From the NCBI GenBank assembly GCA_914767715.1, contig OU612071.1, positions 16,054,948 through 16,118,947 of the forward strand: a stretch of 64,000 nucleotides of DNA, in the 5' to 3' direction. This document shows positions 9,301-51,860 of this stretch, in pieces (within the stretch, counting starts at the first letter, position 1; the number at the start of each line of letters is the position of its first letter). The translations under genes were made by a program, and so were the position numbers. Below the pieces are notes generated by a model. The model saw nothing but the letters and a program-made list of their open reading frames with translations, was not told where the DNA came from and searched no databases. This stretch comes from Membranipora membranacea (Eukaryota > Bryozoa > Gymnolaemata > Cheilostomatida > Membraniporidae).

Positions 9301-12300
9301 AGGTTTATGGGCCACAAAAGAGGGGAATTGCACCACTAACTGCCCTTGATGGTGAGGCTCTGTTGAAGGAAAAGGATGAAATACTGAACAGGTTTGCTGA
9401 ACATTTCGACCAACTGCTAAGCATACCGGGAAATGTACACTATGCAGCGCTCAACACCATAGCTGACAGACCCAGTGTCACTGACCTGGATGATGAACCA
9501 GTTTATGAGGAACTTGTGAAGGCCATAAATTCAAAGCACATACCTCCAGTACCTTGAAAGTACAGTCTCTAACAACGCTCGGATAGATAAGGATATCAGG
9601 AACAGAATGGGTATAGCGGGTATTGCCTTTGGAAAACTTCAAGATCGGCTATGGAAGAATAGGCATGTTACTGTCAAGATAAAGTACAAAGTCTATAGAG
9701 CGGTTGTATTGTCTTCCATCCTATATGTAGCAGAAACATGAACCATCTAAGTACCCAGATGAAAAAAATTAGTGCATTCATGATGAGGCAACTGTGAACC
9801 ATAATGAATGTGACATTGAGGGATAAAATAACAAATGAAGAGATCCTGTGGCGTGCAGGACTCCCTTCAAAGACAGAAATATAGATAGTGAAAAACTTCA
9901 GATGGCTGGGACATGTGCACCAGATGGACGATGAGAAACTTCCGAGACAACTGCTGTATTCTCAGCTCTGTGAAGGAAAGAGAAATCTAGGTAGACCCAG
10001 ACTCGGGTTCAAAGATGTAGCAAAGTGAGACAGGAAAGTGCATGAAATCAACCCTGACCTGTGGCCGAAGACAGCAAGAAATCGACCTGCCTGGAGAAGT
10101 GTCATCAAACCTAAAACCTAAGCATGAAATAGTCCTTGTCGAATCGACCGACTGCAAAGAGAGAGAGGCTAGAGAACAGATTATGCAGACCCTACATTAC
10201 AAATAAGATAGCTAAATGGCAGCTTCCACTTCTTGACATTTTTGCAATTAAAAAGGATGCCAGAACCTTACTTCTGATGCCTTATAAGCTTTGTTGCAAA
10301 TGATATGAGAAGATGTCACTATTAGCCTTCTCAAACCAAATGATTTTTTTCCATTTCTTAAGGTACTGCTCATTGAATCTTATCTTATGATCTGTACGCC
10401 ACTGCTTTACCTTGAAATCTTTGCTGAATCCCTTGATGTTACCGACATAGTATACTCCAGATTTGTTAATTGCAGTCGCTTGTGTTATTGAATCAATTTC
10501 GACGTTGCCATAGTGATCTTTGACTTCCCGAAGAAAATCTAGCTCTCCTGCCGAATTAGTCTAGAAGATAAGATTACAATACAAATCATAATGAGAAATA
10601 TTACTTTTCCTTAAATTTCAGGCGTGGGTGAACTCAGTAATCCGTTACTTCCCAAAGACCAATGTATGTTATAGTCAGGCAGTTACTTATCATCATGGAA
10701 TGTTTTTACCATGCACATCTGACAAAACTTTATGATAAGTCAACACACATTGGTCTTTGGGTAGTTTTTAAAGGCCCGCAGATAATGAAGGTGTTGAGAG
10801 ACTAATGGATGCCAGATTTGGAATCTCCATGCTCCATTTCATCTTTCCATCAATTTCCAGGGCTATAGGTATCATATTCTAGAAGTTATTCCAAATAGTA
10901 TGTAAAACGAATTTGGTGTTAGGTGGAAATAACTCCGAAAGTTTTATGACGTCGATAGAGTTCATCGATGATGTGTCATGATCATTATGTGAGCTAATTT
11001 TAGTAATTTTTGGTAACATAGGGCTATATAGCTGGCTGAGGACACCCCAAACATACTTCTCTATGGGCTCATGTTAGGGCATGGAATCTAAAGGTCTAGA
11101 TTAAGAGCTTGATTAGATACTAAAATACTAACATACATAATGCTTTACAACGCAATTTGTCACGTGACCTAGAGGGAACTCCCTTAATCTAGGTCACAGC
11201 TTTGGGGATATCCCAGCACATTGTGCTTTTACATACACCAGGTATTGCTACCTATATCTCAACGATGGGTAGCAGCAGAGTGATAAAAATTGGTGGGTTT
11301 ATGTAATGAAGCATGGAGATTCCAAATCTGGCATTCATTAGTCTCTCAACACCTTCCTTGTTTGCGAGCCTTTAAGATCAATATTTTCTTTCTTTTGGGA
11401 AAAGAGTATGCTCTTTTTTAGTAAACAGTCTGGATAATATGTGATACTTATATTGTTATTATAGGTTTTACTTGGTCCAACATTTGACCCCACTTACTAG
11501 ATGCTCTGGCAGCTTTTGGTTGTCCTTCAGATATGTCCACACCTGTTCACATATCATCCAAAACTCAGCAAGAGTACGGCCAGTGTCAGGAAACTCGTAG
11601 ATGAGAGGCGCATATCCATGAAGAGCATTCAGTAAGTATGTGGTTTTCTGGGCTGCCAAAGCGTCCTCACCCATAGTGCTGCTGGCGATGTCCACAAACA
11701 CGTCTATGTCATTTCCTAAAATCCATAATTGATCAATCGTCATGTAAATTATCCATTTGCAATTATTGTCTACAAACAAAGCAGTACGCATCTGTTCACT
11801 TAGTATATTTATACTCTCACTTACTTGGGACCTCATCCCGTATCCAGTGTATGAAGTTTTTCGACTTCTCCTCTGTGTAGGTTTTGAGGCATTCTTTAGA
11901 AAACGCTTTGAGACAATTGGCCTTGCCAATTTGATCTTCATCACATATAATTGGTTCCTCTCTTTGCAGATTGGGTGTGAATTCTGCCAAGCTCATTTTC
12001 TCTTCTCTCCTCTTCTACAAGGATTTCCAAAATTCAGCATGTAGCTTTATGATAAATACTCTTCAAAATTTGTTTGCATTCCATGCAGTTGGATGGAGTA
12101 AGATTCTCGAAATTTAGATCGAATGCAATTTGGTGAATTCATTATCCTATACTCAACAAACCAGAATCAACTTGTAGTTTTCAAACTCTGTATCGTCCTG
12201 CAGTTTCAATGCCTTTTTAATGTCTAACATGACTTGTGCATCTTCAAAGTATACATCAAGCTGCCGGCAGCCGTTCAGCTGGGTAATGCGTTTGTTGCCC

Positions 12301-18300: not shown

Positions 18301-21300
18301 CAGACAGAATGGGGAATGAGAGGCCTAAGCAAATTTTACTTTACTGAAAATTTCCATCATCTACTGACAATGTCAAATCTGTGTGCATGTATGTGAAAAT
18401 GAAACATGCGCAATCTTATATTTTTTCTCATCCTTATTTACAAATTGTTTACAATTATCTGTCAAGCTGATATATTCTTACACATTATACTGTTTTTACT
18501 CCACGTGCTGTCATATTCTCATTGTGAAAATACCAATGTTCTATTGCTAGAATTTGTTGCAACTTGTAATCCGTTTGATATCTTTCGATGGATAAAAAGG
18601 GAAAACTCCTCATTGAAGACCATACAAACCTTAATCAATCCCGCACTATTGATATGGAACACACAACATGCCAGTATTGCATTCAGAGGGAGAATATGCA
18701 AGCTTTCAGATGAAAGCAAGCCTTCAAGTTGGTCCTTTCGTAAGCAAGCCAAGAGGGTGAATCCTGCTAGTGAGGTTGGATCTGAATAAATGTCAAGTAT
18801 GCCCAACCATGCTTTCCATTTTTTCCTAAAATAAATGAGGGTAGGTCGAGTCAAGGAAGTTAACTGAACCATTTTTTACAGAATCTGATGGATCGTAACA
18901 CCATCAAAGTTATTTTGAATTAACTGGAGTAAGACACCAATAACATCGATGTTTATGATATTACTACATTGGTATGACCACAGACTGATTCTCTTTTCAA
19001 ACCCATCATAGCCGAGAAAGAGAAAATTGAATATGTCGGTGACACCAGTATAGCTAACACAGATATATCAAGCAAATGACGGACTAATAAATGTTGCAGA
19101 AATAGAGATCAAAGGCATTCAATTGAACTCATCCACAATGGTATAGTGTGATATGATGTATTTATAGACTGTAGCTAAAGTCATGACCTTTAATTTTTTG
19201 ATTTCACTGGTTTATAGAATAGATCAACTGATCTGGTGGATTGCTCAGCTTTTCCATGCATATCACAACACTCATACTCACGACTGAGAGGACTTCTTTA
19301 TGTCTCTAACTTGATGGCTGTAATCTTGGGTGCCCCACCAATATTGTGTGTTGGTATCGGACCCATGTGTCTTGGTTGATATTCCTGTCAGACACTGGTG
19401 TAAAGGTACTAACAGCATCCATAGCTGATAGTTCCCGGATTTATGAGACTTATCTATCAATGATTTCAGATGATGGCAGTCATTTGTTAGCCTAAAATGG
19501 AAGTTGATCGGTTGAATAGATCATCAAGAAATTGATCATATACAGGGGAGCAGTAAAACTTAGAAAATGAATTAGAATTTCACATTTATAGACTAGCATC
19601 ATCTCTTAATTTTCAGCCAAACTATGGTTTGATTCCTAGCAACTTTGGAGCATGGCTAAATAAATATCAATTATAACATATTCAAGTGTGATTTTACGTA
19701 GGTTAACATCCTTAACACTCGACACTCGACAAACATATGTAATCTATCCAGTGCCTTCAACGAGCATGGTTGTTGAGGCATTTTTATTAATTATGGCTAA
19801 GAATATAAAGCACATAAGTGACATTGCAAGGAAATAATCAGAAAGTTGTCTTTTACCTCTTCTAAAATATTGAGGTAGGTACGAGGTTGTGTTCTCTTGT
19901 TGTTGAAATTTGATGGCTCATTTACAAAAAAAAAGAGTAATCACCACATGTACTTTATCATGGAAGGAAATTGACCACTACTGGGCAGCATATCACAAGC
20001 AGTCAACTTATTACTAGTGTTGGTCTTTAGATGCATCAAATGTTTCTGTCCTTATAGAAATAAATAATAATGGCCTGTCAAAACTTGAATCAATTATATT
20101 TTGTATAATTTTAAAAAACCTGTTAGTGCAAAGAAGGTTTCTTTATATTGTGATCCTTTTTGTAGTAACATTGCCATATGCCGTATGACTGCAAGTCTAA
20201 AGACTAGAACAGTTTTTTGTTTTCAAGAGCAATTTTGGACCAATTCCTCTCTTTTTGGGCTTGTTGTTCGTTGGGAGATCGCAGTACTGAACATGAAAAT
20301 GAAGCATGCCAATTCTAGCAACTGGTTGAAGATAAATTAATACAGGTGGGCAGATTGGTTATTTTTACCTGATAAATGGTATACAGTGAGAATATTTCAA
20401 TGATAGTCAATGTTTTGTGATGTACATATTTAATATTTAATTTTTATTAATAGGAGGTAGCTCAGTGGTTTAGACACCAGTCCGTCCACACTTAAGTGAT
20501 GAAGGTTTTGGGTTCGAATCCCACTGCAGTCTATCAACTACTGGGGTTTGGTTGGCCCCCATGTGTGCTCCGAATTGCCTGAGAACAGAGAGCAAATTGG
20601 CGCAGACATTGCGGCCTTGCCATTAAGGCAAATTAATATTTTGCAGCCCATGCTTTGGGATGTGGCGTGTGATACGACATCCGATTTTTTTTAATCAACT
20701 GATACTGAAGTAATTGTATGCACAAAATGGCATAACTGCATGCAAATATTTTAAAGGTTTATATTTTTCCTGTACTGCTTTCACATTCTGTCTAGTTTGA
20801 CAGGTTACATCTTCAAATAATATACCATATTATCACCAAATCTGTTAGCAATTCAAGCAAGACAGACCAGCACAGGCAAGGTGCCAAAAAGCTTGCAAAA
20901 TTTAGCGAAGCTTGATGCCTAAAACCTCTTTTGTCCATTTTATGTTATGTAATGAGACATGAGGCAACCCTCCTGTATTGGCCGTACCCTTTGTCCTACC
21001 ACTTGAAAACCCATAAATATAGCAATTTGTCTTGGGGAAATACGATGAATGAATTATTTTTGTGATTTACTCGTGGAATGAATTTTAATTTATAGCCGCT
21101 TATAACTCCTGAGAATAAAGTATATAGGCGCTACCGTTGAAAATTTCCTTCAGTACAGCCCTACTCCAGGTCTCAGGTTTATTTTCATGTTGCACACTTA
21201 TGCAATTTAGAGATGAGATAATACTTCTAGATTGATGTGCCTATATACACGCTTTTATGTCTAAAAAAATGAGTCTTGCTCAAGTAAAATTTTTAATGCC

Positions 21301-24300
21301 AGGAAGTATAGATGGTCACTCACCTCATGTTTTTATCAGTGGTTGATCTCATGATAGAAATTTCTTCAGCAATGTTAGTGCTGTCAATTTCTAAGCTTGT
21401 CTTTGTGTCTTTGATGAGTTTTTCTATGAGTTGGGTATGTTCTCTAGGTTTTAAATCAGTGACATACTCATCGATTAGCTTCAGTAAACCTAGCATAGAT
21501 GACACCTTTACCGCAGAGGTTATCATTGAATCTGCGCAGACACTGCTTGTGTGGTCACTGCATACTGATGATGCAAACACCAGCAAGCTCTAGAAAAAAA
21601 ATGCAAATGAATTAACTCACTCATAGAATATTGAACATTAGTGAGCAATAAAATAAAATAATTCTTCTCACACGTTATAATCATCAGTCAATCTACTTGT
21701 TAGACCATTCAGCGCTGTGAGGTAAAAATGAAAGTATACCTCGATGACAATGCTGCAGACAGCAACTCCCAGCGCTGCCATTTGCAAAATGCCTTTTGGT
21801 TCTAGGACAGTGTACCAAAGCTCTATCCCATAAATTAAATTAGGATCAAAATGATAAATCAACCTTGTTTATATATCTTGGAAAAACTCATTTAGGTGGG
21901 ACCTTCCAGATTCCTACCCCTACTTCTGCCCACTTCCCACTTTTTGTAATTCTCACTATTTCCTCCAGATTTGAGAGAAAACCGCCCTATTGCAATGTTT
22001 TAGTAACTGTCCAAACACTTGTTGATGAGTTACTGGTAAGGTCTTTACACACACAATTAAAAGGAATTGTGCTATTCAAAAGTGTTAACAGATTTACCTG
22101 TTGAATTAACAATCAGACTCTTATTGTCGATGGGATGGTTTCACTGGACATCGGAAAATTAGAGGAATGTAAATCCCAAGAGCCAATGTGCTGATTGTAA
22201 GTGTTTACAGTGTATTTCACCTCATTTTGATATTTTAGTGTACTAGTACAAAGGACAAACATGGAATTATTTGCAATCAATTATGCGTTTCTAGCCCTTC
22301 CTCCCTTCCCTTCAGCGGCGGGGGCCCCACCCCGGACCCCATTGGGGCTCATACTGCCCCCAAACCCCCAGGTTGACCACTCCGCACCCTTGAAGCATCG
22401 CGATGCGGGGCAGTATTGCTGTTAATTGAAATCTTTTGAATTTAGATTACTTGGTAAGTATGGAATAACTGTAACTCTCATGTTAAAGATCCAACGTACA
22501 ATTTCTCTGCACATGTCAGCACTTGATTGTGCTCACTTCATGATGTCTTATCATAGAGTTTAGATAATAATCCCATACTAAGAGGGAAACTATTTAAAGA
22601 TAATACGCAAAGGTATACTGATCACATATCTGATATTCCCATGTTGTCCGAGTTTTGCAGATTTTTGGTTAGAGGAAGTTATATGAATGCTTCAGTTACA
22701 TATTTCAATCAGCATCTATGTTTCTATCGATTACACAAACTGTTCATTAGAGTGTGCCAATAGATTTATGCATCAAAATAGATTTGAAAAACGGAAATAT
22801 TCTTCACTAACTTTCATTTTGTTAACCGAAGAGTAAAAACTGTGCAATGTGCATCAGGTAGTTGTTTTCTTTTTTTCTGTATCACAGCCGACAATCCAAA
22901 TCAAAAGTTCAAAAAGCATTTAATTGCAGTGTTCGAAATTATCCCACTTGATTTGTTCTTCCTGTTTACTGCCATGAAATTGCACATTATCCAAATGGGT
23001 GTCTGGGAAAGAATTGATTTGTGACACAGATGGACAAACAATTAGCATTGAATTTATACTAACAGAAATGACATTCTCCTTCGGATTGTCCTGATAGAAT
23101 GTGTTTGAGTACTGCTTGCAGTGTTGAGTCTGCTGTTCAACTGCATTTCTGATCTTCTGTAGAATGACATCAGGTGCTGTACCGGATTTTATTTCCTCTG
23201 ACCAGTTTGGTAGGATAGCTGGGATGGCATCAATCTTTAATTCATAATCTCGACTAGGGCTGAAATAAGGAATTCTCCATGACTTGCTTTGAGCCAGTAT
23301 CAGTCCATCGTAGTTAGTCACTGATATAAATCCTGTGAAATAAAATGGCATACATGCAATGACATTATCAACAGAGCTGACTTCGTATGAATCATCTTGG
23401 GGTCGCAGGCAAAAACAACCTCAGTTGAGTTCAGCAGAGGATATTTTTTTGTGTATGAGCCATTAATCTACAGAGTCATAACTTCAAATAACAAATTAAC
23501 TTACTTTGATAAAATGCAGATCGGAATTGGTCAGATGAAGAGTTGGGATTTTTTTCATACACTTTTGCACCAGATTCAGTGTCCTTGAGATAGTATTGAT
23601 AGTTCACAATCCTTTGCGACAAAGGGATTCCTTTTAGGTTTAACACCAGCTTGCTGCCGCTGTAATAAAATTTGAAAGATATTTCTAAATTTTCCGTCAG
23701 AACATGGCCGACTGATGAGGCGATCAGTACTGTAATGATTCATCATTTGTGTGATAGTTTGATTCCCTTGCCCAGTGTCTTTTGGATTTGTAGACATTGG
23801 ACGAATGATTGGACATGATTCCTGAAAGAAAAATAATGATGAATAAAATGATTGAAAAGATCATTGTGATCTTACTAAAGATGACTATAGTTTGTTGAAC
23901 TGCTAGAATTAGAGATAAACCATATTCAACAAGATTGGTGGAATTTATGTTGATTGAGATAACACAAACAAAGCAATATAGTAGGCATATATGAATATAG
24001 AGACACTTTGTTTGCGTTGAAGGTTTGTTATCTGTCGAATAGCGTAAACACACTTTTTTAGTTTCTGTGTGTTAAGCTAATGGACGGCCTTGTGAGAAAT
24101 GAGAAGCGACACATTGTCAATGGAGATGAACTGGAATAGCTGTACTTTGCTTGCCACCACTGTCAATATCTAGACTCTGCTGACTAATAGTTTCTTTTCT
24201 TTAAGCTCCATTATGTTGTAATAGACAACACTCAGGGAGCGATATCCTAATATACAAAATGATCTTTCTTTGATTGTCTTGCCACCACATCTCATTACAT

Positions 24301-27300
24301 CAAATCTCAGTTGTGCAACAACAAAAATTCAACTACCAAAGGATAAATGTGTGGCCAAATTACTACCGGCTGTGTACTTACCTTTGCCTCATTTCGTTGA
24401 TCCTCATTACCTTTCGATCATTGCTCAATATTTCCATGTGAAGACTCAACTTTTTCTGTGCAACCAGCTCCATCCCTGATGTTGTTAGTGTCGCCACAAA
24501 TGTCACTTGCCTAAAAGGATTTGACACCATATATATTCTTCAATAAACTTGCCACAAGGTTGATTTGATTAACAAGCCATTTTCACCACCAAGCAAAGAT
24601 TCAGAATTCTGATACACAAGGAAGGTTAAGTTTTTGCATCAATCAACTTTCTCATTTTATATATTTAATAGTGACATGAAATTGAGAAAATTTATCTGAA
24701 AGTAAGGTCTAGGAACAGCCTTTCATGGAAATGAATTTTTTTTGTTATCAAATGAATTTATATTTCAGAAATTTGCATGGAATGAATGAATGAGGTTATA
24801 CTTAATTATGATACACAGAGGTGTGATAAGGGGCGATATATCCACACTCACCAAGTATCTGTCGTCTGAAATAGGAAAAGAGAAATATGAGATGTAGATT
24901 GAACTTTCAATATTCCAATGATGTAGCAGGATCGCATTAATTTATGTGTGATGTTTGTCTACCTACAATACATTATGTTTGTGTGATAACAATGAGAGAT
25001 CTATTATTGTTTTCTGTTAAGGCTTGATAATTCTGTGCGTTACATGCAACATCGGCACAAACTAACGCGAAACAATCTTTAGGATTGCTTAAAGAGTATA
25101 CTACACAACAAGTTATTATTCTCACCTTTGTGTTTCTTAGAATTTTGATCTTCTCTATAGTTGACCTTATGCTTGCCTCATTGACGGATTGGAAGTTTGT
25201 TATGCGTTTATGTACATTTGACAGATTGTCGTGGCGTTGAATCATAGCATCCCCCGTCGCCTCATTGAATTCTCTGAGAGCCTTCGAGAATTCTGTATTC
25301 AATATGTTTGTCTTGTTTGCAAACTCCTCAAGACTCCTGTGCGTGTCTTGTTTGGCGTAGCTGGCAATGTTTTGGGAATTCCCGTTTGTTTGAATCTCAG
25401 TGTTCAGCATGTTCAGGAGATCAGCAAATTTCGATGGCAGTTGAAGAATCGCCTCTATAAAGGCAATTTCAGATGGTAAGTAAATCAGAATCTTATATTA
25501 CTGTAGATTTTTTGACATCGAATAACTTTATTATTCAATTATCAGTTTCAAGACTACAACCTTAGGGACACAGGGACCTCGGACATACCTTAAGGCCTGA
25601 CAACGACTGTCCAGAAATTTAAAGGATTGTGTTTGTGTGCTCTAACATTATCATATAATACAAGGATTGGCTCTCACTATAACAGGAAAATGAAGTAAGA
25701 TGTTATCTCAGTCAGCTTGAGGGTAAACCAAGGACTAAATTTTCATTTACATTTGCCTCACTGCTAATCTGTCTTTTTCTGGACACAATGATAATCTGTT
25801 CTGAATGAAGGTCCACATCAATTTTGAGTTGGCATTCAATTGCAATTATGAATTTGTTAGTGAGGTTTCATAGTATACTAACTTTGCATTGGCCTGCCAT
25901 AAGAGTGGATTTGACCCTGTGTAACCTCCTCCGCTCCCCTTTGAGAAGATCAATGCTTCACTTAACCTACTATACCACTGTGCGTACCCAAAACTTACCT
26001 GAGGGCTTGAAGTTTTGAACACTGGTTCTTTCTAGTACAGAGTTTGTACTTGCTTGCTTGAAGCTATTTCTCCTCAACTGCATGCCTACAGACAGTCAAG
26101 AACATATTGTGACCAAATCGTTCAACTTCTAATCAGTCGAACTTCCATGGTTAGTGTTTAAGTCCATATATTATTTTCCTGGCGATTATACATTTTTGAG
26201 GGCCTCCTGTTTCAATACACAAAGCAAAGAAAATATGGGAATGAACTTATTGTCCCAGTAGTCCTCGAAAGAAGGTCCCAAGGTAAGAGCCATGTAGTGG
26301 ATCGATTTCTAACAAATCTATATGTCAAGCCAAATAAGGCAGGCCAACCTGTTTGGAGTCTATTGCGCGACTCAATCGAACGGAAAATAAGGGGAAACTG
26401 AACTACTATGTGTGAAAATTCTTGGTTGAGCTTATGTTTGACTTTTGACATTTGCGAGCCTGGAAAGCCAAACAGACAAAAAAGAGATTTTGTTGACAAA
26501 TTTCCTGATATTTTTCATGGATTAAAAATAGGATTAATCAGTTTTCAAACCCCTGATGATTTGAAATACTTTGTCCCTGTAAGTTTTAAATGATGCTGAT
26601 GCTGATTCTGAATGAGATTTCATCCTATCTTATGCAGTTCCCAAGATATATTGATTTCAGCTCCATTATCCTATGCTGCGCAAGATAAAGAGTCCCAACT
26701 TGAGAGAGAACAACTCCGAGCATAGGCTTATATTCAAAACTGTCTATGTTCAAGGCATGATACTGATTGATGTGAAAAATGATTACTTGATCAGATTATA
26801 AACCAGCCTGTCATATTCCAAGCACCCAGATTATTTTATTTTATTCTGTTCCAAATTGGCCACTATGTGTAAAATTTGCTTTCATAAATTTATAGCGGGA
26901 ATAGAAAAACTCTGGTTACAAGGGATCTGGAACCCAGACCCTTACTTCTTTAGCCTTTGTAAGGAGGGGTCAACCAGCCATGGTGGTTTACAAGGCTTAT
27001 CATTATAATAATATGATGGGTAATCAAACAGCATGACCAGTGGGTCACTTCACACTTAATGGATAATGGCAAGATTTATCTCTTAGCCAAAAGACAAGTT
27101 ACATGTATATCACAAACATACCTGTGATCAAAACAAAATTCCTGATCTAAAGTGTGAGAGAGTGCTATGAAATTAGACATTATTGAGTACATACCTTCAT
27201 TCGACTCTCCATTGCGACTCTCCTGTTGAAACTCTTCACCTGGTACTGAAAAAATATCCAACAATTTATTTCAATAATTTTCCAGGGTTATGAAAAAACA

Positions 27301-30300
27301 GTAGACCAATTTTATAACCATATCTGTGGAGTGAGTATAACAATTTTCTCAATGAATATTTTGGAATCTTTATTTATCTCTAAAACATCACAATAATTCA
27401 ATGTTACATTGATTTTGAAATAAATATCTGACGTTATTTTTTTAATATGGCAAGTCCTTTGTCACAGATTAGAACTTAAGGATAGTGAATCTTTGAGTGT
27501 GTTTGGCAATTTAATAAAACGTTCCTTGATTTCAAACGACCGATAGTTGAGATACAAAATGATGTGTCCTTATAGACTGCCCAGGGTTAAAGACTTTGTT
27601 TGAGGCTGCTCGTTTGTATCACATCTTATCCTCCATATTTTATTCTATCATGTGAGCGATTTTCAGCTTTAGAATCCAAATATTGAGGAAGTTATGGCCT
27701 CTCAAACTTCCAGGGTGATTGCCTTCAATCGGCATTGGGAATAAGCGGATATTTCCCCTGGGGTATGTCACAACCATAGACATGTGGCATAGACATTATG
27801 AGTTATTAGTTAATACACTAATAATCACACAGATAAGATGATGATCAAAATTCAGACCTGGGTGGGAATCGAACCCGGGCCCCTATACCTATAGGCAACC
27901 ATCACGCCACTTGGACCAACTAGGTTAGCCAGTAGACAATATAGTTCAGTATTAGCGGCGTCGCCCATTTGGACCTGGGTTCGAGACCGTTACAGATTTG
28001 AACATTTTGATCATCAATATTAGTGACGTACCCTAGGGATTGCCGGCTGATTCTTACTGCTGATAAATTGCCGTCATCTTGGAAGTTTGAGAGGCCATAA
28101 CTTCCTCAATATTTGGATTATAAAGCTAAAAATCGCTCACATGATAGAATAAAATATGGAGAATAGGATGTGATACAAAAGAGCAGCCTCAAACAAAGTC
28201 TTTAAGCCGCACCCCAATCATCATTGGACCAATCACAGTTTGGTTACATTGAGCCATACCTGCATCATGGTATATTTCCTCTTCAGGTTCTTCCTGACTG
28301 GCTTGGACAGTTCTCTTATCAACTGCCATCTGATACAACTCTACACCTGGAATTGAAATTTCAGGAGCATTAAAATTTCACTACGGATAATGAGAAAACA
28401 AAGGACACTCCAGGCAAAGAAAGTTTTAGATAAATTATAAGATACATTTTCCTTCAGAAAGACAAAAACCAATCATAGATGGAGCTGCAGCAATAACAGT
28501 GAAGATATTATCGTTGATATTAATCCAAACGGAAATTCTTGTATTGGTAATATCAGAGTAAAAACATAGTTGATTGTAGCATTAATTCCTCATTTCTTTG
28601 CGAAAAGGTAAGTATTGGTTGGTACCGTTGTAGTATTGTAAACTGTCCCCCACGCGAAAACAACCCCGGGACACTTTACAATATTGTAAACTGTCCCGGG
28701 GACACTTTACAATAAAAACAGGCCTATTGTAAACTGTCCCCCCCTATTGTAAACTGTCCCCCCCTATTGTAAACCGTCCCCCCCTATTGTAAACTGTCCC
28801 CCCTATTTGTGACTGTCCATATCGAGAGCCCAGCTGTTTATCACCATTCTAAATGGGTCAGATCATCTAAGTGGAGCATACCATGATGTTCTGGCTGCCA
28901 CTATGATGGCCAAAGTTGTACCATGGGGATGGTGGTGGTATCTCATAGAATGACTGTATAAAGCCTCTTTTTCATATGGTACTTTGGGGATCTATTTTTC
29001 GCAAACACTAGTTATTTGAAGCTCCTATGATTTAGAGATGTCTGGTTTGCGAAGAAAGGTGCACTAAGCCAACAGTGGATAGATGTGTAGTTGCCACATC
29101 ACAGAACACACATACTTTCATTGCAGGTTCATGAGCCGCGCGAAAACAACCACCCCATTCATTCATCATAAAATCTACCTCCGTCAAGCATTTGCCTAGG
29201 AGTGATGGCAGTCAGTCACAAGTGTGAGCGGGAGAAATAATTACTTTTGAGCTTTTCATATTGTGAGGATGGGTATTGCACTGTAAAATATTGCTTAAGC
29301 CGCGCGAAAACAACCACCCCCCAAGCTGTCTTATAAAGATATCTGTTAAAAAGTCTCAAACATAATGAACCGTGATTTTGCATCCATAATGCGATTATCA
29401 TAAGGTGACTGTTTACCAAATTTCAGATTAGTAGGTCAGAACTTAATGACACAACGCATAATATGTCGTTCTTTGCAAGTTCATGAGCCGCGCGAAAATA
29501 ACCACCCCATTCAGTCATTTTGAAATCTACCTCAATCAAGCATTTGCCTGTGAGTGATGAAAGTCAGTCACATGTGAGACCTGGAGAAATAACGACTTTT
29601 GAGTTTTTCATATTGTGCCGCCTGGTATTGGACTGTAAAATATTGCTTAAGCCGCGCGAAAACAACCACCCCCCAAAGTGTCTTATAAAGATTATCTGTC
29701 AAAAAGTCTCAATCATAATGAACCATGATTTTGCAGCCATAATTCGATTGTCATAAGGTGACTGTGTACCAAATTTCAGATTAGTAGGTCAGAAGTTAAT
29801 GACACAACGGATGATATGTTGTTCTTTGCAAGTTCATGAGCCGCACGAAAACAACCACCCCATTCATTCATCTTGAAATCTACCTCAATCAAGAATTTGC
29901 CTGTGAGTGATGACAGTCAGTCACAAGTGAGAGTGGGAGAAATAACCGCTTTCGAGCTTTTCATATTGTGCGGCCTGATATTGCCCTGTAAAACATTGCT
30001 TAAGCCGCGCGAAAACAACCACCCCCCAAGCTGTCTTATAAAGATTATCTGTCAAAAAGTCTCAAACGAAATGAACCATGATTTTCTAGCAATAATGTGA
30101 TTGTCATGAAGTGACTGTGTACCTAATTTTGGATTAAAAGGTTAGAAATTAATGGCACAACGGATGATATGTCGTTCTTTGCAAGTTCATGAGCCGCGCG
30201 AAAACAACCACCCCATTCAGTCATCTTGAAATCTACCTCAATCAAGCATTTGCCTGTGAGTGATGACAGTCAGTCACAAGTGAGACTGGGAGAAAGACCG

Positions 30301-33300
30301 CTTTCGAGCTTTTCATATTGTGCGGCCTGATATTGCCCTGTAAAACATTGCTTAAGCCGTGCAAAAACAACCACCCCCCAAAGTGTCTTATAAAGATAAT
30401 CTGTCAAAAAGTCTCAATCATAATTGACCATGATTTGGCAGCCATAATGTGATTGTCATAAGGTGACTGTGTACCAAATTTCAGATTAGTAGGTCAGAAC
30501 TTAATGACACAACGGATGATATGTCGTTCTTTGCAAGTTCATGAGCCGCGCGAAAACAACCACCTCATTCATTCATCTTGAAATCTACCTCAATCAAGCA
30601 TTTGCCTGTGAGTTATGAAAGCCAGTCACAAGTGAGACCTGGAGAAATAACCACTTTTGAGGTTTTGATATTGTGCCGCCTGGTATTGGACTGTAAAACA
30701 TTGCTTAAGCCGCGCGAAAACAACCACCCCCCAAGCTGTCTTATAAAGATTATCTGTCAAAAAGTCTCAATCATAATGGACCATGATTTTCTAGCAATGA
30801 TTTGATTGTCATGAAGTGACTGTGTACCTAATTTTGGATTAAAATTTTAGAAATTGATGACACAACGAATGATATGTCGTTCTTTGCAAGTTCATGAGCC
30901 GCGCGAAAACAACCACCTCATTCATTCATCTTGAAATCTACCTCAATCAAGCATTTGCCTGTGAGTTATGAAAGCCAGTCACAAGTGAGACCTGGAGAAA
31001 TAACCACTTTTGAGGTTTTGATATTGTGCCGCCTGGTATTGGACTGTAAAACATTGCTTAAGCCGCGCGAAAACAACCACCCCCCAAGCTGTCTTATAAA
31101 TATTATCTGTCAATCATTCATTGCAGTTGTCTCCCAAAATGAAAGAGGAAACAACTTACAGTATGCTGCCATATGTGCTGTAATTCAAGGGATCTAACTG
31201 TGGAGTGAAAATATAACCATTCTATCTGAAATTTGGTATACATTCACCTCATGACAATCACATTATAACTAGAAAATCATGGTTCATTCCGTTTAAGACA
31301 TTTTCACAGATAATATAAGACAGCTTGGGAGGTGGTTGTATTCGCGCGGCTGAAGCAATAGTTTACAGTGCAATACCAGGCCGCACAATATGAAAACCTC
31401 AAAAGTCATTATTTCTCCAGGTCTCACATGTGACTGACTTTCATCACTCACAGGCAAATGCTTGATTGAGGCAGATTTCAAGATGACTGAATAGGGTGGT
31501 TGTTTTCGCGCGGCTCATGAACTTGCAAAGAACGACATATCATCCGTTGTGTCATTAAGTTCTGACCTTCTAATCTGAAATTTGGTACACAGTCACCTTA
31601 TGACAATCACATTATGGCTGCCAAATCATGGTCAATTATGATTGGGACTTTTTGACAGATTATCTTTATAAGACACTTTGGGGGGTGGTTGTTTTTGCGC
31701 GGCTTAAGTAATGTTTTACAGGGCAATATCAGGCCGCACAATATGAAAAGCTCGAAAGCGGTCTTTCTCCCAGTCTCACTTGTGACTGACTGTCATCACT
31801 CACAGGCAAATGCTTGATTGAGGTAGATTTCAAGATGACTGAATGGGGTGGTTGTTTTCGCGCGGCTCATGAACTTGCAAAGAACGACATATCATCCGTT
31901 GTGTCATTAACTTCTGACCTACTAATCTGAAATTTGGTACACAGTCACCTTATGACAATCGAATTATGGCTGCCAAATCATGGTTCATTATGATTGAGAC
32001 TTTTTGACAGATAATCTTTATAAGACACTTTGGGGGGTGGTTGTTTTCGCGCGGCTTAAGCAATATTTTACAGTCCAATACCAGGCGGCACAATATGAAA
32101 AACTCAAAAGTCGTTATTTCTCCAGGTCTCACATGTGACTGACTTTCATCACTCACAGGCAAATGCTTGATTGAGGTAGATTTCAAAATGACTGAATGGG
32201 GTGGTTATTTTCGCGCGGCTCATGAACTTGCAAAGAACGACATATCATCCGTTGTGTCATTAAGTTCTGACCTACTAATCTGAAATTTGGTAAACAGTCA
32301 CCTTATGACAATCGAATTATGGCTGCCAAATCATGGTTCATTATGATTGAGACTTTTTAACAGATATCTTTATAAGACAGCTTGGGGGGTGGTTGTTTTC
32401 GCGCGGCTTAAGCACTATTTTACAGTGCAATACCCATCCTCACAATATGAAAAGCTCAAAAGTAATTATTTCTCCCGCTCACACTTGTGACTGACTGCCA
32501 TCACTCCTAGGCAAATGCTTGACGGAGGTAGATTTTATGATGAATGAATGGGGTGGTTGTTTTTGGTGCGGCTCATGAACCTGCAATGAAAGTATGTGTG
32601 TTCTGTGATGTGGCAACTACACATCTATCCACTGTTGGCTTAGTGCACCTTTCTTCGCAAACCAGACATCTCTAAATCATAGGAGCTTCAAATAACTAGT
32701 GTTTGCGAAAAATAGATCCATAAAGTACCATATGAAAAAGAGGCTTTATACACTCATTCAATGAGATACCACCACCATCCCCATGGTACAACTTTGGCCA
32801 TCATAGTGGCAGCCAGTACATCATGGTATGCTCCACTTAGATGATCTGACCCATTTAGAATGGTGATAAACAGCTGGGCTCTCGATATGGACAGTCACAA
32901 ATAGGGGGGACAGTTTACAATAGGGGGGGGACGGTTTACAATAGGGGGGACAGTTTACAATAGGGGGGGACAGTTTACAATAGGCCTGTTTTTATTGTAA
33001 AGTGTCCCCGGGACAGTTTACAATATTGTAAAGTGTCCCGGGGTTGTTTTCGCGCGCGGGACAGTTTACAATACTACACCGTATCTAGTCTAGCCAATTC
33101 CCAACAGGGTTACCCTGGTGCCAGGGTGGTACTATTTTAGACTGTCATCAGTGTCCCCAAAGATGATTAATTAGTATGAGGAATTTATAAGGAATGGTAA
33201 GTCTTTGGTCGTGTTTTAGGAGTGATGGATGAAGAGAATGTACAACACATAAATATGTTTTTACTACAGCATTCTACTACGATTTCTAACACGGTGAAGG

Positions 33301-36300
33301 ATAATACTGTAATCATACAATAAAGAACACAATTTATTTAGCAATAATAATTAATAATGGGTTGCTGGTTGGTTATTGATAAATTTGTTAACAGAGAAAA
33401 TACTATTTCTGTTCAGTATTGACCAACAATATTGGGGTATGAAATGCAGTGAGGCAATTTGTAACTAGTATTCTATTGGGACACTTCACTCACTTTTTCA
33501 CTTATAAATAGAATATGTAAGTAATATAGAAGTTGTAATTTTTTGAGGTGATAAATTAGGGCAAGTGTTAAATGCCACGAGACTATAACTCATCTGACAG
33601 ATGTGAGTTTAATATTAAGAGGGAAAGTAATCATTATGAGTTAAGGATAGTGCTATTCTATCAATCAAGTGGCCATGAGCTTACGGTTGAGGTTATTGAT
33701 AATTAGCTTGGAAATTTTAGTAGAAAGGGGAGTACATGTAATATCTGTGTCCTAGACTCTCAAGCATATTCTGCATATACATAAATGTAGTACAAACCTG
33801 GATTCTTTGAATCTAGAACATTGGCATTGTTTGAAGCATCCAATTGTTCCTGTTGACCATTACCAGTTTTGCTTAAATTCTCAACCGTAGCTGTAAGAAG
33901 GATATGATTGAAATTACAGTATATTAGTTGAGATTCCCTTATTGATCTGTGACATATTTTTAGAAAAGGTGGAAAAGAAACAACAACAAGAACTTTTGTG
34001 GAGGCGTATTAATTTAGTGGATGGGATGTGTATTAAACTTTCTGAATGCTGTGTTGTTACAGGGCAACCAAGGTTTCAATCAAGTTCTCATTAATTGATC
34101 GCAGATTACACCTTATGTGTAGGGAAAGAGATCTAATCTAAATTGGATAACTATTCAGTGAGAAGTCTTAAGAAACATTCCATCCATCAGGAGCTAAAGG
34201 TATTTCAAACACTGCTCAAATTCAGCTGAACTAGAACCACACAGAGCAGTTTCCTGTTATATTTAGCCTATGCTCTATCACATAATTACTGCAATATCTT
34301 GGAACCTTCCCTAAACTGAAGTGTTACTCAGCTACGAGTCAGCAACTACTTTGAGTTTTGCACGGCGTCATGCACAAAGCTGATGCTGCGTAGCACATTC
34401 TTTACTACCCATTTATGCAATGCTGCGAAACTGTGTAGTCCCTTTAAGTTAGAAGTGTTTTAAAGGGCAACCAAGGTTTTGCAGCAATGCATAAATGGGT
34501 AGCAAATAATGTGCTGGGCAGCATCAGCTTTATGCATTACGCGATGCAAAACTCAAAGTAGTTGCTGACTCTAAGCTGGGTAACACCATACTGACTCTCG
34601 TGATCTGACTGGGCATGTAGATCACTGATAAACTAGGCTATCATTACCACAAAGCAGGTGTCGTAAGGCTAAGTATGCATCATGCGTGACTTGAATTTGC
34701 GCATGTGCAAGAACAATGAGTTTAGTTTGGGTTCTGATTGCAACTTTGGAAAGGGGAAATGGGATATCCCCTGCATAAACTGTCAATCAAAATCAGCTAA
34801 TAATGACAAGAGAGGATTAACTATTAATAACAAATCCGCACACTTTGGGGAGTATGTTACTAGAGCAGGTAGCCAATCAGATGGCTTCGGAATTCCGAGA
34901 CTCAATTTTGCAGAGATCAGCTCATGCCCAGCGCTGAGCATGCGCAACCAAGATTTCGCATCAATGCATTAATGGGTAGCAAATAATGTGCTGGGCAGCA
35001 TCAGCTTTGTGCATTACGCGATGCAAAACTCAAAGTAGTTGCTGACTCTAAGCTGGGTAACACTTCAGTTTAGGGGAGGTTCCAAGACTTTGCTGTAATA
35101 ATGATAGAGCACAGGCTAAATAATAACAGGAACAGGAAACTGCTATGTGGAATTCTCTTTTAGCTGAGTTTGAGTACCTGATGGAAGAAATGTTTCACAA
35201 GAATTCTGGCTGAATAATCATCCGACTTATATTTTGTCTTTATCCCCATGCAGAAGGTGCAATCTGCTATTAATCAATGGCCATCAATCAGAAGTTGTTT
35301 GAAACCTTGGTTGCCCTTTAATGATTACACACAAAATAAGTACAACTGAGAAAAAAAGATTCAAGAAACTGCTCGGTAGTGGTATTCTATTTTAGCGGAG
35401 TTTGACTCTGATGGATGAAATGTTTCACAAGAATTCTTGCTGAGAAATCATCCTAATTAGATTTTTTCTTTTTCCCTATGCAGAAGGTGCAATCTGCTTT
35501 TAATCAATGAGAAATTGTTTGAAACCCTGGTTGCCCTTTAATGATTACACACAAAATAAGAGGATATAAGTACAGCTGAGAAAAAAAGATTCAAGAAAAT
35601 GGAGACAGAATTAGGAAAAGCCAAATGAGCGATAAGTGAAAGAATTATTGAAGATAAAGAAGAAATTTATACATCTATTAACCTTGCGGTGACAGAGTGG
35701 TTGGATTATAATGCATACCTGGCTTTTTTGAATCTCGGTCCTGTGCATCCCCCTGTTCACCAGTTTGCTCTGACCTGTCAGTGAAGGTTTCATCAACAGG
35801 ATCTCCTTAGATCATGAACAAAATTAGCTTTGTTACCAATAGAGAATTACAGCTAGCTCATTGCTTGCAAACCAGATATCATGGTTGTAGCAAAAAGATA
35901 GCAAATAAGTTCGAAAGAACATATGGCAATTACAATTACCTTCATGTAAATCTTCTTTGTTCTTTCTCTCTCCATGCCTCTTGGCAATATTTGTCTCCCC
36001 AGCATGTGCGTTCTCACCTGTGTCATCTATTCCAGACAGTGCGTCACTCTTCACTGTAACATAATTTTGAAAGTAACGATGACAATATAAAAAATCAATC
36101 AACAGGCAATACATATTTGATGGATTGAGTCAATTAGAGGTAAAACTTAAGGTTATGATACCAGTGTTGACCGATTCGGACATTTCAAGGTAAGGTTATC
36201 GAACACTGATTCTGAAAATGTTGGTTTTAGCATGACGTCATGTCATGGCGTTGCGCTATTTTGATAAAAGGCAGGATAATCGGCTTTGAGGAGAATTTTT

Positions 36301-39300
36301 TAGAACGAAGTGGTGCAGAAACAATGGTTCATATCCGACTTTCAACTGAATAATATTTACAAGAAACCTCTGAAGCACCCATGTGGGGCAATTTCTGTCT
36401 CCTGTGGCGATGCGCACCAGATGAAAAATCATATTTTATGCATTGTTTATTAGCTCATTTAGGTCATTTTGGTTTAATGGATGAGGATCCAATGTGATGC
36501 AAACCACATGCAGAAAGGAAAGTTATTTCCTGCAGGAGACCCCATGCTACGTGTCACGACTAATAAATAACAATTATATAGCATTCTGACAGAGAGGGCA
36601 ACTCCTAATATTATTGATACCAATGTCTTTTATTAGTCATGACATATAGCATAAGGTCTTCCCAAAGTAAATAACCTGTCTTTTCGTGTGTGGCACGCAT
36701 CACATTGGATTCTCATCCATTTAACCAAAGCGACCTAAATGAGCTAATAAAAAATGCACAAAAGATGATCTTTAATCTAGTGCTTAATGCCACAGGATCC
36801 AGAAATGGCCCCTCATGGGTGCTTCAGAGGCTTCTTGTAAACATTATGCGGTTGAAAGTCTGATATGAACCATAGTATCATAAAAATCCTCCTCAAAGAA
36901 GATTATCCTGCATTTTATCAAAATAGTGCAACGCCATGACACGACGTCATGCCAGACCAATATTTTCAGAATCAGCGTTCGATTAGCTTTCCAACGATAT
37001 ATAAAATGTCGAAATCGGACAACGCTGGTATCATAATCTTAAATAAAAAATATAAGCTTTCATTATTATTTGCCAAACATTTTCTTAAAGTTTTTGTCAG
37101 ATATGTGCAAAAAAATCAGATTGTATTCCGATTGCATAAATATATGCCTGTGAGGTACTGTCCTGTGGAAGCATGGGCCGTGTTTCAATGATTTAAGAAA
37201 TGCTGGGGCTGAAGCCATTTGTGTGTGAACAAATACAATGGGAATAGGTGGGCTATACTGTGAATGCAGATGAGCTCAGTATTGTCAAACACAAAGTCAA
37301 AGTATCGGATAGAAAATAGAATATTGACAATATTTACAAACAAACGAGAGACAGAATTATGATGGGAACCGAAATAAAATTCAGCGATAACAAAGAAACT
37401 AAGGTCAGTTGAAAAAAGTGAGAGAATGCAGCAAATAAACGGGAGGAACAATTACAATATGTAAAGGGATGAACTTAAAGGGCAACCAAGGTTTCGCAGC
37501 AATGCATTAATGGGTAGCAAATAATGTGCTGGGCAGCATCAGCTTTGTGCATTACGCGATGCAAAACTCAAAGTAGTTGCTGACTCTAAGCTGGGTAACA
37601 CTTCAGTTTAGGGGAGGTTCCAAGACTTTGCTGTAATAATTATAGAGCACAGGCTAAATAATAACAGGAACAGGAAACTTCTATGTGGTATTCTCTTTTA
37701 GCTGAGTTTGACTACCTGATGGAAGAAATGTTTCACAAGAATTCTGGCTGAATAATCATCCGAATTATATTTTGTCTTTCACCCCATGCAGAAGGTGCAA
37801 TCTGCTATTAATCAATGGCCATCAATGAAAAGTTGTTTGAAACCTTGGTTGCCCTTTAAACAGACCTTCTAGCAAATTCGGATATAAAGCAATTCCCAAA
37901 TACCCTAGTCTGTAAGTACTCAGGTACTAAGTAGGCACGGTAATCATGGTACTGGAGCAAAATCTTGGACAACCGTAAACATATTACAACTTTGAAATTT
38001 CAGCATCCCAACCTCTTTGATTGCAAGGTTTAATATGTATGGATTCTATATATAGCCCTGAGACATTCAAAGAATCTGCCATACATACCTGGAATTTTTG
38101 GATCTTGATCATGTGCATTCGGCTGATCATCTGTTTTGTCTGGCTTGTCAGTGAAAGTTTTATCAAGCATATCTCCTGGATCTGCTAAATATCATGAACA
38201 GTATTAGCTTTGCTATCAAAATGGACTAACAAACAAACAAAAATACTGATTTCTTCTATATAGCAACAAAATAGCAAACATAAAAGAAATAACAACATGC
38301 CATGTCAAAATCACAATTACCTCCATGTAAATCTTCTTTATTCATTCCCTCTCCATGCACTTTGGTAACATTCGTCTCCCCAGCATGTGCGTTGTCATCT
38401 TTATCAACCATTTTAGACAGTATATCACTCTTCTCTGTAAGATAATTTTATAAATAACATTATTTGAAAAAAAGACAGACCGGCAGACAATACAAATATA
38501 TAATAATAATTATTGTAATGAGTGTAATTGTGATGTAAAACTTAAATGTAAAATATCTGCCTTTAGATTCATTTGCCGTTAATATTTTTAGCAGTGGTGT
38601 ATCAATTTTTTAGGTAATCCAGGTGCCGAATGCCAAGGGAGGACAATTTTGCCATATGTTGAATGCAGAGGGGCACAGCATTGACCCAGACAAAGGCAAA
38701 GCATTGGAGGAAAAGAATAAATAGAAAGTTACAAGAATGTGTAGGTAATTTTGCCATACACAATACTATGGTTGTAAAAACTTTGAGCAGGCTGTTAACA
38801 GAGCAGACTTCCAAGTAGTCATATCAAAATTTTAAAGCTTGGGACCAGGCTGGAAGATCTGAAAAATCACAAGCAAAAGCACAACACAGTATCTTTTCTT
38901 TGGGAAACCAAGATAGAATAGAATATGTAAATAAATAAAATAAATGAAGTCTCCACCAAAAAGTAATGTTGTAGACAACCTCCACAGTTGTACCAACAAA
39001 ATCTGCAAGCAGCTTTAGTGTACCCACCAAGAAAGACCACCATGATATTGCTATTATCATGTCATTGAAGCTCTGGAAACCCACGAAACATTGCATACGC
39101 TGGAGCAGTTTATCCTCTAGGTTATGATTGTAAGTTAATTTTTTTTTAAATCAAAAATCAAAATTCAATTAGATAACAAGACGCAATGGCACTCATAATT
39201 AGTGTTGCAGAGAAATTTTCTGCCACACAAGAATAGGGTACACTAGAGGAGAGAGTCTGATTTTAACTCAAAGCTGATAAAACATCTACACGCTCTTCAG

Positions 39301-47518: not shown

Positions 47519-48429
47519 CCTGGAATTAATCAAAAAGCAAACATATAAGCCCCCAATCTGGTTTCAGAAGGACCTACGTTTTTTTTTGGATCGCCAGAGA
47601 AAAGTTAGTCAAAACAAAAAATCTACGCTTGTAAGAGTAATATTAGTTGGGACTTCGTTAGCTTATACACTACAGCTATGTTTGCTCAACCACAAATGAT
47701 ATCAATATTTGATGTGGAAGGAACCTCCTAAAGATATTCAACAATAATTTGGTAAACCCTAATCTGCGAATACCAGACAAGTCTACCCGCAAAACATTTC
47801 TCCATTATTTTATTGCCTTGTCAAGAAAAACAGTATTCACCATATTATTTGTCATGACCTCGGTTTTTTTGGTGTTGGTTGAAGTACACGCTAAAGCCCA
47901 TTGGCTATGGCCGAGCAAAGAGGTAGTAGGTAAGAATGGAAGAACTTGCTCAAAACAATAATCACCTCACAGAAATATAATAATGCAATAAATGATCGGA
48001 CCGAATAACAACCACATGCCGTGACCCAGCCTGACCTACTAAAAATTTACTTCCTCATCGTAGTCGCTGAGCATGGGCCAAAGTCTGGGGTAGGCAGGGT
48101 TATGCATTCTCCCCCCTCCCCCACCAGTTTTCTTATGGGGTACTCTGCAAGTCATGGTACCCCCACAACAATTTATACGTTCTGTATTTTGCAACACATA
48201 TGCCACTAGTTTCATTCTAAAAATCATTTGGTGAAACTTTCTAACGAGGGGCGCACTCCCAAATCCCTCCCCAAGAAACCCCATCCACATATTGGATTAT
48301 GGGTATCCCCACCAAATCCTCAAGCCTTTGACAACTGGCGCTTAGGTTTCCTATTTGCTCCTAATCATATGTATTTTGATGAAATATGCTCAAGTTCCCA
48401 TAAATTGTCAATGCTGTGGCATTAATATG
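47519..48429. promoter_or_regulatory. Region upstream of RNF213, presumed 5' UTR and promoter
   Basis: An acceptor (TTGATTAATTCCAG) ends immediately before the start codon region, so a non-coding exon is expected to the right. No TATA box or clear donor could be assigned. The neighbouring TPR gene is transcribed away, so regulatory sequence for both may lie between here and 51.9 kb. Confidence 0.4.
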
Positions 48430-49118: not shown

Positions 49119-49668
49119 AAATGAACCAACACACACCAACAACAGTAATGTGTTTCAAAGCATGGCAACAAAAGACAAAAACAAAGATTTAAAGGTGAAA
49201 GTTTTTTCACTTTGCAAAAACAGAGGCTATACTTGTTGATCTGAGCAATCTATTGGAAATGGCGGAAAACCATAAATTTACAAAGGCGCAGGAGATTGCC
49301 CAATCATTAGCACTATTTTATATATCTGAACTAGTAGTTGGCAGTTGTGCAGAAAGAACGCTTTGACTTTTTCTGATGTTGTTCAGTACAAAGTATAAGG
49401 TAATAGCAAGTTGTTTAAATCGGTTCGATATGACTATTCTACAGCTCTGGTTAAAGGAGCAATTGAGGATATTGGTACGGTGTGTCGGTTGCCAATGCGT
49501 CAAAAGCATTGAATGCCATATCCGGAATAGCATAAATAGCTTTCTTTTGCCAAACAATGGGCTCGCAGAAACGCCAGTCCCTACTAGGAAAGCCCAAATC
49601 ATCAATCAAATCCATGGCAGATGAGTCCCTGTGATGGATGTTCTAAATGTATGATGCTATGATACTAT

Positions 49669-50322
49669 CGCAGAGTAAGGATATACAGAGTGGACAGTTC
49701 AATGATAGTTATAGTGCCTGCGGGTTTTGATTCACTGGGGGAAAATTGTGCACAGCTGGATGCCAAAAACTCATTATCTCTATATGTTATAATGGCATTT
49801 TTCTTGCAGACATCCCTACCTTTGATGGGCCATAATTCATTCTGTATTTATCCTAAAGACTGATTTCCAACTTTGTTGGAATGTCCAAGCTTCAAGCTAT
49901 ACACCATATTGTTGTCATTTTTTGCTAGGATTCATAGGCTAAGAGTAATCCAGGTTTTTAAAATGAGTTTTATCATATAGATTTACATGTGACAATTGAT
50001 AGACGGCTGGTCTATATGATAAAACTCTTTTTAAAAACCTGGATTACTCATAGCCTATGTATCCTAGCAAAAAATGACAATTATATGGTGTATAGCTTGA
50101 AGATTGGACATTTCAGAAAAGTTAGAAATCAGTCTTTAGGATAAATACAGAATGAATTACGACCTATCAAAGGTGGCTATGTCTGCATGACAAAACTCCA
50201 CTGTAACTTATATATATTCTGAAATTGGCAGGTGGCCAGATTGATGAATTTCCCCCAGTGGATAAAAACCGCAGGCACTATAACGATCATTGAAGTGTCC
50301 ACTCTGTATATCCTTACTCTGT
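49669..50322. mobile_element. 654-bp palindromic hAT-like MITE
   Basis: The arms CAGAGTAAGGATATACAGAG and CTCTGTATATCCTTACTCTG are flanked by GATACTAT at 49661-49668 and 50323-50330. An 8-bp duplication with CAG-type ends is the hAT signature. A related host repeat at 39826-39845 (GCTATGATACTATTTCC) shows the empty site. The arms stay paired to the middle (ATCATATAGACCAGCCGTC type loop). Confidence 0.82.
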
Positions 50323-50774
50323 GATACTATTTCCTTTCCATGTGAAGAATTTAATTCAGTGGTCGAAAGTGACAGGGGATTAAGAAAGTTGAAATATAAC
50401 CACTTGGTTGATAGCTATCAGCTATGAACCAGCTTTCCTCAATGATTTGACCTCATTCAGTGTCAAATTCACAATATTTGTGACATCATAATTGCCGTAT
50501 ACAATATAATCCCTCAGACTTGTCGAACTTTCACTTGCCAAATAACCTCTCCACTTAGCCTAATTCTAAGCAAATGCCCATTATTGGAACTTGAAAACCA
50601 CTAATAACTGATATGCTGATAAGCTGGTACCTTGTTTGCTATTCCTGCTATTTATAAAGACGTGTTGGAAACTATCTTGCTGACAAGGACGTACTGCAGC
50701 AACCGCGTGCAACACTATTTATGCAAGTATACGAGGAAGTCAGATTACCAAATGTTGGTGTTGCCAAACTCATA

Positions 50775-51860
50775 CCTGTCAACATGGGCTAATATTTTTG
50801 AGGGACAAACCAGGCCGGGGGTCCAGGGGGCCGCCCAGGCCAACTGGCGGGGTCTGGGGCAGCGCCCCGGCCGCCGAAGCTTTTGAGCAATTACAAAGCA
50901 AAAAAGACCAAAATCCAGGCATTTTATGCTATTAAGCTTACTCTGAATATAGATACATGGATATGACAGAGAATGTCCCACACAATCGTACAGACAAATG
51001 AGTAAACAGATTCAATAGATATGGCTGTTGTAATGTAATTATTATTTACTGGTCTGTGCAGTCTTGGCCATCTCCTTATGTTTCTTGCCAAGTGTGTGTC
51101 TGAACACATCATTAGATCCACCACCAGTTATATTAATGTCACTTTTACAATAGTAAGTACAATGGGCATAGTCCATCCCCTGCACACTTTTCTTTAGAAA
51201 AGGGTAAGTGGTATTCCATGCATCTAAGTATTTGCATGACCTCTTTGCTTTAGGTTATGGTATTGTGTCTGTCTTTCTTTGATGAGATGAGAAGAATTGG
51301 ACAAAAATGTGCAGAGTGTGAATTTTATATTTCCATAACTAAAGAAAAAACTTGTGAAGAGATTTTAGTATTATCAAAATCATTTCTTTAGAAGTGGGAC
51401 TTAGCTAGTACAATGAACAATGAACAATGAACAATGAACAATGAACAATGAACAATGAACAATGAACAATGAACAATGAACAATGAACAATGAACAATGA
51501 ACAATGAACAATGAACAATGAACAATGAACAATGAAGTTCATTGGCTAGTAACCACTCTTATCTTATCTTTTATCACAGTCTCTAACAGATTGAATTAGG
51601 GCTACACTACACTTACAAACAATAGACATACACGTCATAGTAAAACAATGTATCATCAATGTCAAAATAGTGTCATGTCCATTGCTGTTGCCAGGGCAAT
51701 TGAATAAACATGATAACAGCTATTCTAACATACATGACCGATTTTTAAGCATACATAAATCATTTCCCTGGACATTTGAGGGACATTAAGTGCTTGAGGG
51801 ACAATGAGCATAATCCCTGGACGATCCCGTGAGATCCGGGGACAGTTGACACATATGGCC
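50775..51860 (-). mobile_element. Fragment of a DNA transposon with a BED-like zinc finger
   Basis: Unit A is interrupted here relative to unit B. On the minus strand near 51040-51165 a frame reads CTYYCKSDINITGGGSNDV and then RHTLGKKHKEMA, a C-x2-C...H-x4-H finger like those at the N-terminus of hAT-derived proteins. The borders carry CCTGTCAAC near 50778 and GTTGACAC near 51847. A GC-rich stretch (50810-50880) follows the left border. No transposase core is present. Confidence 0.55.
51410..51536 (+). repeat. Heptamer satellite (ACAATGA)n, about 18 copies
   Basis: Perfect 7-bp periodicity over about 126 bp with no visible interruption. It lies about 430 bp upstream of the duplicate first exon, inside the transposon-derived insert of unit A. 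Confidence 0.95.

Follow-up and report, generated by a model that had tools for sequence, protein, structure and literature searches.

The element and its locus

The window, a 64,000-bp stretch of Membranipora membranacea DNA (contig OU612071.1), contains a foldback element at 28629-33078: a near-palindrome of 4,450 bp with termini TGTAG...CTACA. Its first bases, at 28629, are TGTAGTATTG, and its last, at 33078, are CAATACTACA. CCGT abuts both ends in the same (direct) orientation, an exact duplication. The parts are as follows.

28625-28628, no strand: left 4-bp target-site duplication, CCGT
28629-33078, no strand: whole foldback element, 4,450 bp, TGTAG...CTACA
28629-29116, plus strand: outer domain of the left side (terminal inverted repeat, free of 353-bp units); 480 of 489 columns match the right outer domain
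28634-28804, plus strand: left TATTGTAAACTGTCC repeat cluster, direct and inverted, including a 38-bp imperfect palindrome at 28664-28701
28651-28665, plus strand: left subterminal CACGCGAAAACAACC motif, the same motif as in the 353-bp units
29117-31113, plus strand: left array of 353-bp units, 5.7 copies, L1-L6, L6 partial
31119-31218, no strand: central spacer, about 100 bp
31224-32590, minus strand: right array of 353-bp units, 3.9 copies, R4-R1 in plus-strand order, R4 partial
32591-33078, minus strand: right outer domain
32908-33073, minus strand: right TATTGTAAACTGTCC repeat cluster, direct and inverted
33042-33056, minus strand: right-end subterminal CGCGCGAAAACAACC motif
33079-33082, no strand: right 4-bp target-site duplication, CCGT

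At 11468-11989, on the minus strand, lies an ORF that matches RNF213 (best E 3.6e-5, query residues 93-166), and other minus-strand ORFs flank the element on both sides. Six further minus-strand ORFs, compared with PDB, gave no RNF213 match. Among ten ORFs compared with Pfam, none scored above its family's cut-off; a zinc-ribbon-like ORF at 47249-47560 had a sub-threshold match only. A Pfam scan of 20001-34801 in two of the three minus-strand frames (the third and the plus-strand frames lay outside the scan) returned nothing at E 0.001. The preliminary description had placed the element whole inside an intron. This placement is plausible but not confirmed: the RNF213-like ORF and the minus-strand ORFs on either side favor it, whereas the six ORFs lacking an RNF213 match do not.

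The element is built of two arms around a small center. The outer domains, 488 bp per side, are 98% identical over the 489 aligned columns. Tandem Repeats Finder (TRF) describes a 353-bp unit in the left arm and, as its inverted counterpart, a 352-bp unit in the right. The inverted repeats measure 488 bp without the units and about 1.9-2.5 kb with them. Among the ungapped inverted arm pairs reported are three of 1,053 nt (94% complementary), 800 nt (98%), and, at the termini, 521 nt (96%). The center (span 31114-31215 compared) resembles the unit and the outer domain at chance level only. Base composition also sets the element apart from the rest of the window: GC content is 41.1% versus 37.7%, and CpG observed/expected is 0.61 versus 0.43.

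The element has no coding capacity. Its longest stop-to-stop ORF is 99 aa, and its ORFs recur with the array; a protein search with one of these chance ORFs gave no candidate. The window holds no sister copy: blastn of the element against the remainder gave four matches, all of 15-21 bp (E 0.24-0.84). Exact scans of viral contigs (three patterns) and prokaryote contigs (two patterns) yielded 0 matches each, which is little informative for a eukaryotic element. The anatomy in the preliminary description is thereby upheld: a foldback near-palindrome with TGT...ACA ends and CCGT on both sides, tandem units in both arms (nearly six against four), and non-coding throughout.

Motifs shared by ends and units

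Two motifs recur within the element. The terminal-type repeat TATTGTAAACTGTCC is present in 16 copies when up to 2 mismatches are allowed: eight at each end and none elsewhere in the window. By comparison, 200 Markov-1 sequences of element length contained a mean of 0.01 copies and a maximum of 1. Some copies stand head to head, forming a 38-bp palindrome. The clustering of subterminal repeats reported earlier thus bears out.

The second motif, CGCGCGAAAACAACC (15 bp, up to 2 mismatches), links the ends to the arrays. It occurs 21 times in the element, and neither in the remaining window nor in the 200 simulated sequences. At each end it begins at base 23 from the terminus; the other 19 copies lie in the units, twice in nearly every one. 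(One half-unit of R1 has an inserted base and so falls outside the count.) All left-arm copies are on the plus strand and all right-arm copies on the minus strand, so that the motif always points inward. This inward-pointing recurrence, from the ends through the units, is a new result. The 353-bp unit is no mere copy of the outer domain: the two align only over a 16-bp motif region.

How the arms relate to each other

Units were numbered from the ends inward. Those at matching positions in opposite arms are strikingly alike: L1/R1, 96.9%; L2/R2, 99.4%; and L4/R3, 98.9%. Every other comparison among L1-L5 and R1-R3 falls between 85.2% and 93.2%. L3, L5, L6, and R4 are without a close partner in the opposite arm, although the spacer truncates L6 and R4 and thereby depresses their identity over a whole unit. 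Because position-matched units share 97-99% and others only about 85-93%, whole blocks appear to have been copied or converted between the arms, also a new result. Independent growth of the two arrays is rejected as an explanation; it would not yield position-matched pairs. Exchange also happens within an arm: over its last third, R1 resembles R2 (98.2%) more than L1 (93.8%).

The innermost left units record a different event. A stretch of 232 bp is exactly the same in L5 and L6 (30516-30747 and 30869-31100). No exact run at that spacing is longer, and it is the sole run of at least 80 bp in the left array at spacings of 352 or 353; it marks a recent in-phase unit duplication. The simplest history, then, starts from an old array whose units had diverged, followed by block copying or conversion between arms and in-phase gain or loss of units. 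In-phase duplication and arm-to-arm block copying would account for most of the array pattern, and the rolling growth proposed in the preliminary description is not needed.

Palindromes of about 4.45 kb are hard to assemble, and one arm might be spurious, an inverted duplicate of the other made in assembly. In such a false mirror, the arms should match perfectly and flank sequence should be mirrored as well. Here, however, the arms differ at 9 of the 489 outer-domain columns, they hold six and four units with the four unpartnered units named above, and mirror symmetry ends at TGT with direct CCGT outside. Because the arms differ in both unit number and sequence, and because of where the symmetry stops, an assembly artefact is very unlikely.

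Alternatively, breakage or template switching might have inverted and duplicated a satellite array on the spot, with no unit transposon involved. Satellite-like arrays do occupy most of the element, and their unequal unit number would suit such an origin. An in-place inversion is nevertheless hard to reconcile with symmetry that stops at TGT/ACA, with CCGT copies that are direct rather than inverted, with flanks that differ beyond them, or with motif clusters at the ends, as in transposons. We give this origin little credence.

Ends and target site

A transposon reading draws attention to the ends, for which the preliminary description had suggested an integrase-type mobilizer. Published features now lend that suggestion support. 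Ginger1 elements are transposons with a Gypsy-integrase-like transposase, containing YPYY, zinc finger, DDE, and GPY/F parts and usually an OTU or Ulp1 domain (Bao, Kapitonov and Jurka 2010, PMC2836005). They have TGTNR ends and 4-bp duplications (CCGG, 75%; CCGT/ACGG, 24%); full-length elements measure about 2.6-7 kb, and non-autonomous copies are known from lancelet (PMC2836005). The element resembles them in that it has TGTAG at both ends, is flanked by CCGT (one insertion), falls within the size range, and, like the lancelet copies, is non-autonomous.

The CCGT match is improbable by chance. A random 4-bp direct match in this window has a probability of about 0.005, and the further requirement that it be CCGG, CCGT, or ACGG lowers this to about 2e-6; these three make up just 0.24% of the window's tetramers. 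When TGT...ACA pairs with one of these duplications were sought across the window, at a threshold of at least 9 of 14 end matches, the element was the sole match. With the duplication unrestricted and 12 of 14 end matches, there were 19 pairs: the element itself, one nested in the outer domains, 16 between array units, and an unrelated one at 2022-3590, which falls within a longer inverted repeat.

In other features the element departs from Ginger1, among them its lack of a transposase. Terminal inverted repeats there are about 40-270 bp, a range describing full-length, mostly autonomous families, whereas here a 488-bp outer domain is followed by arrays, so that the element is palindromic almost throughout (PMC2836005). 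Because its inverted repeats far exceed the published range, membership in Ginger1 is not claimed. Rather, the match between the ends and the published description suggests that the element is moved by Ginger1, or works like it; the target class rests on one insertion, since a single copy was seen.

Related groups fit less well. Ginger2 shares TGTNR termini but targets RTATAY (PMC2836005), and is ruled out by CCGT. Polintons and IS3EU/GingerRoot (the latter with mostly TA..TA ends) make 6-bp duplications, against the 4 bp here, and are likewise ruled out. The ends would fit a solo LTR, yet solo LTRs lack long inverted repeats, which rules out this candidate too.

IS481EU requires more careful weighing. 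It has TGT...ACA ends, its duplications are 4 bp in several families (15-16 bp in others), and a single insertion cannot establish target preference; the foldback might thus be moved by IS481EU, or by an undescribed group with TGT ends and 4-bp duplications, with CCGT incidental. The scarcity of the three tetramers speaks against an incidental CCGT. Moreover, IS481EU has been characterized from parabasalids, whereas the neighboring RNF213-like ORF suggests an animal, and its inverted repeats are mostly below 50 bp, in disagreement with those here; the element offers no transposase to compare. A mobilizer from another superfamily is accordingly improbable, though far from negligible.

Proposed mechanism and known foldbacks

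The favored reading, to which we assign a probability of roughly 0.7, makes it a foldback DNA transposon that is non-autonomous: a cut-and-paste transposase of Ginger1 type (Gypsy-integrase-like), its gene lying at another place in the genome, would move it in trans. The transposase would cut at TGT/ACA and, at CCGG or CCGT targets, make a 4-bp stagger. Both the terminal repeats and the arrays' CGCGCGAAAACAACC motif would be putative binding sites, which may help a transposase with a short site discriminate its element from the remaining genome. Candidate routes that would hold the arms alike are arm-to-arm conversion, template switching on a hairpin, and repair of the gap after excision. Unit number would shift by in-phase unequal exchange.

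"Foldback" is a descriptive class rather than a superfamily, and the anatomy here belongs to it: long inverted repeats with tandem repeats, and little or no middle. Galileo makes 8-bp duplications, as against 4 bp here. In sea urchin TU elements, the long inverted repeats are likewise modular and carry short tandem repeats in their outer part; the 8-bp duplications and the outer repeats of about 15 bp differ. TU elements are listed as foldbacks of sea urchin in the report on Tetris (PMC4079207).

Galileo resembles the element in its long inverted repeats, some subfamilies having internal tandem repeats of about 210 bp in numbers unequal between arms; it differs in belonging, by its transposase, to the P superfamily (PMC3573991). 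Footprinting located a Galileo transposase THAP-domain site near the end, and more sites were identified in the arm repeats (PMC3688188). Tetris, from Drosophila virilis, is apparently non-autonomous and has an outer flanking domain followed by tandem units of about 220 bp; a 37-bp stretch is common to domain and unit, much as the CGCGCGAAAACAACC motif is here, and a unit duplication between alleles is described (PMC4079207). Tetris differs in its 8-10 bp duplications and its inner and middle domains, and its account describes no Ginger1 signature (PMC4079207). In the element studied here, flanks TTGGTACCGT and CCGTATCTAG have a direct match of 4 bp and none longer, unlike the 8-10 bp of Galileo and Tetris. 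The Galileo arm sites and the Tetris common stretch are analogous to the recurrent motif, and by that analogy the arrays may be amplified recognition sites.

Each half of this architecture has a precedent, the ends in Ginger1 and the foldback arms with tandem units in Galileo and Tetris. The earlier claim that no named family fits needs dividing: the ends do fit Ginger1 and the arms Galileo or Tetris, and what stands is that no named family was found with both. No report of the combination stood among the listed papers of the openly licensed literature, most of them judged by title and opening of the abstract; a Repbase or Dfam entry may exist. The Ginger1 sections of the original description mention no internal tandem arrays, and "tandem repeat" has 0 occurrences in its main text (PMC2836005). 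There is some precedent for linking Ginger1 with tandem repeats: the 1,736-bp oyster satellite CgiSat41 is annotated as Ginger1-related (PMC8268682). Ginger is also mentioned alongside tandem repeats or foldbacks in PMC10294476 and PMC6431247.

A broader proposal is possible, though we hold it tentatively. Within the integrase-like Ginger1 group, foldbacks with satellite-filled arms may have evolved separately from those of Galileo and Tetris, as a convergent means of multiplying transposase binding sites; the arms would evolve in concert by arm-to-arm copying, and the element would serve as a small mobile factory and disperser of the 353-bp satellite. If confirmed by more copies, the element would indicate that foldback architecture evolved convergently with unrelated transposases, one of them related to retroviral-type integrases; it would support arm satellites as amplified binding sites; and it would exemplify a satellite unit arising and spreading inside a transposon.

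Other repeats and reading frames in the window

A second inverted-repeat element lies at 1877-3735, with TATATACC at both ends. Its arms (1877-2228 and 3394-3735) are 90.6% alike over 352 aligned columns, and it has no blastn match to the main foldback element. Further self-complementary palindromes, 77-83% by self-blastn, occur at 36147-37042, 49662-50330, and 34321-34586; foldback-like elements of other families are thus abundant in this region. A 378-bp dispersed direct repeat (34944-35321 and 37482-37859, 97% identical) overlaps a 230-bp tandem repeat at 35147-35560, and a perfect ACAATGA heptamer array spans 51410-51536 (18.1 copies, 100% matches).

A plus-strand ORF at 8247-8729 has weak, sub-threshold similarity to endonuclease/reverse-transcriptase families, and is probably a retrotransposon remnant. 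Finally, a long uninterrupted ORF of TPR repeats (575 aa) occupies 56359-58086. One database protein is 100% identical to it over 87% of its length; there are 2,665 other matches, and choanoflagellate TPR proteins are among the best 120 of these.
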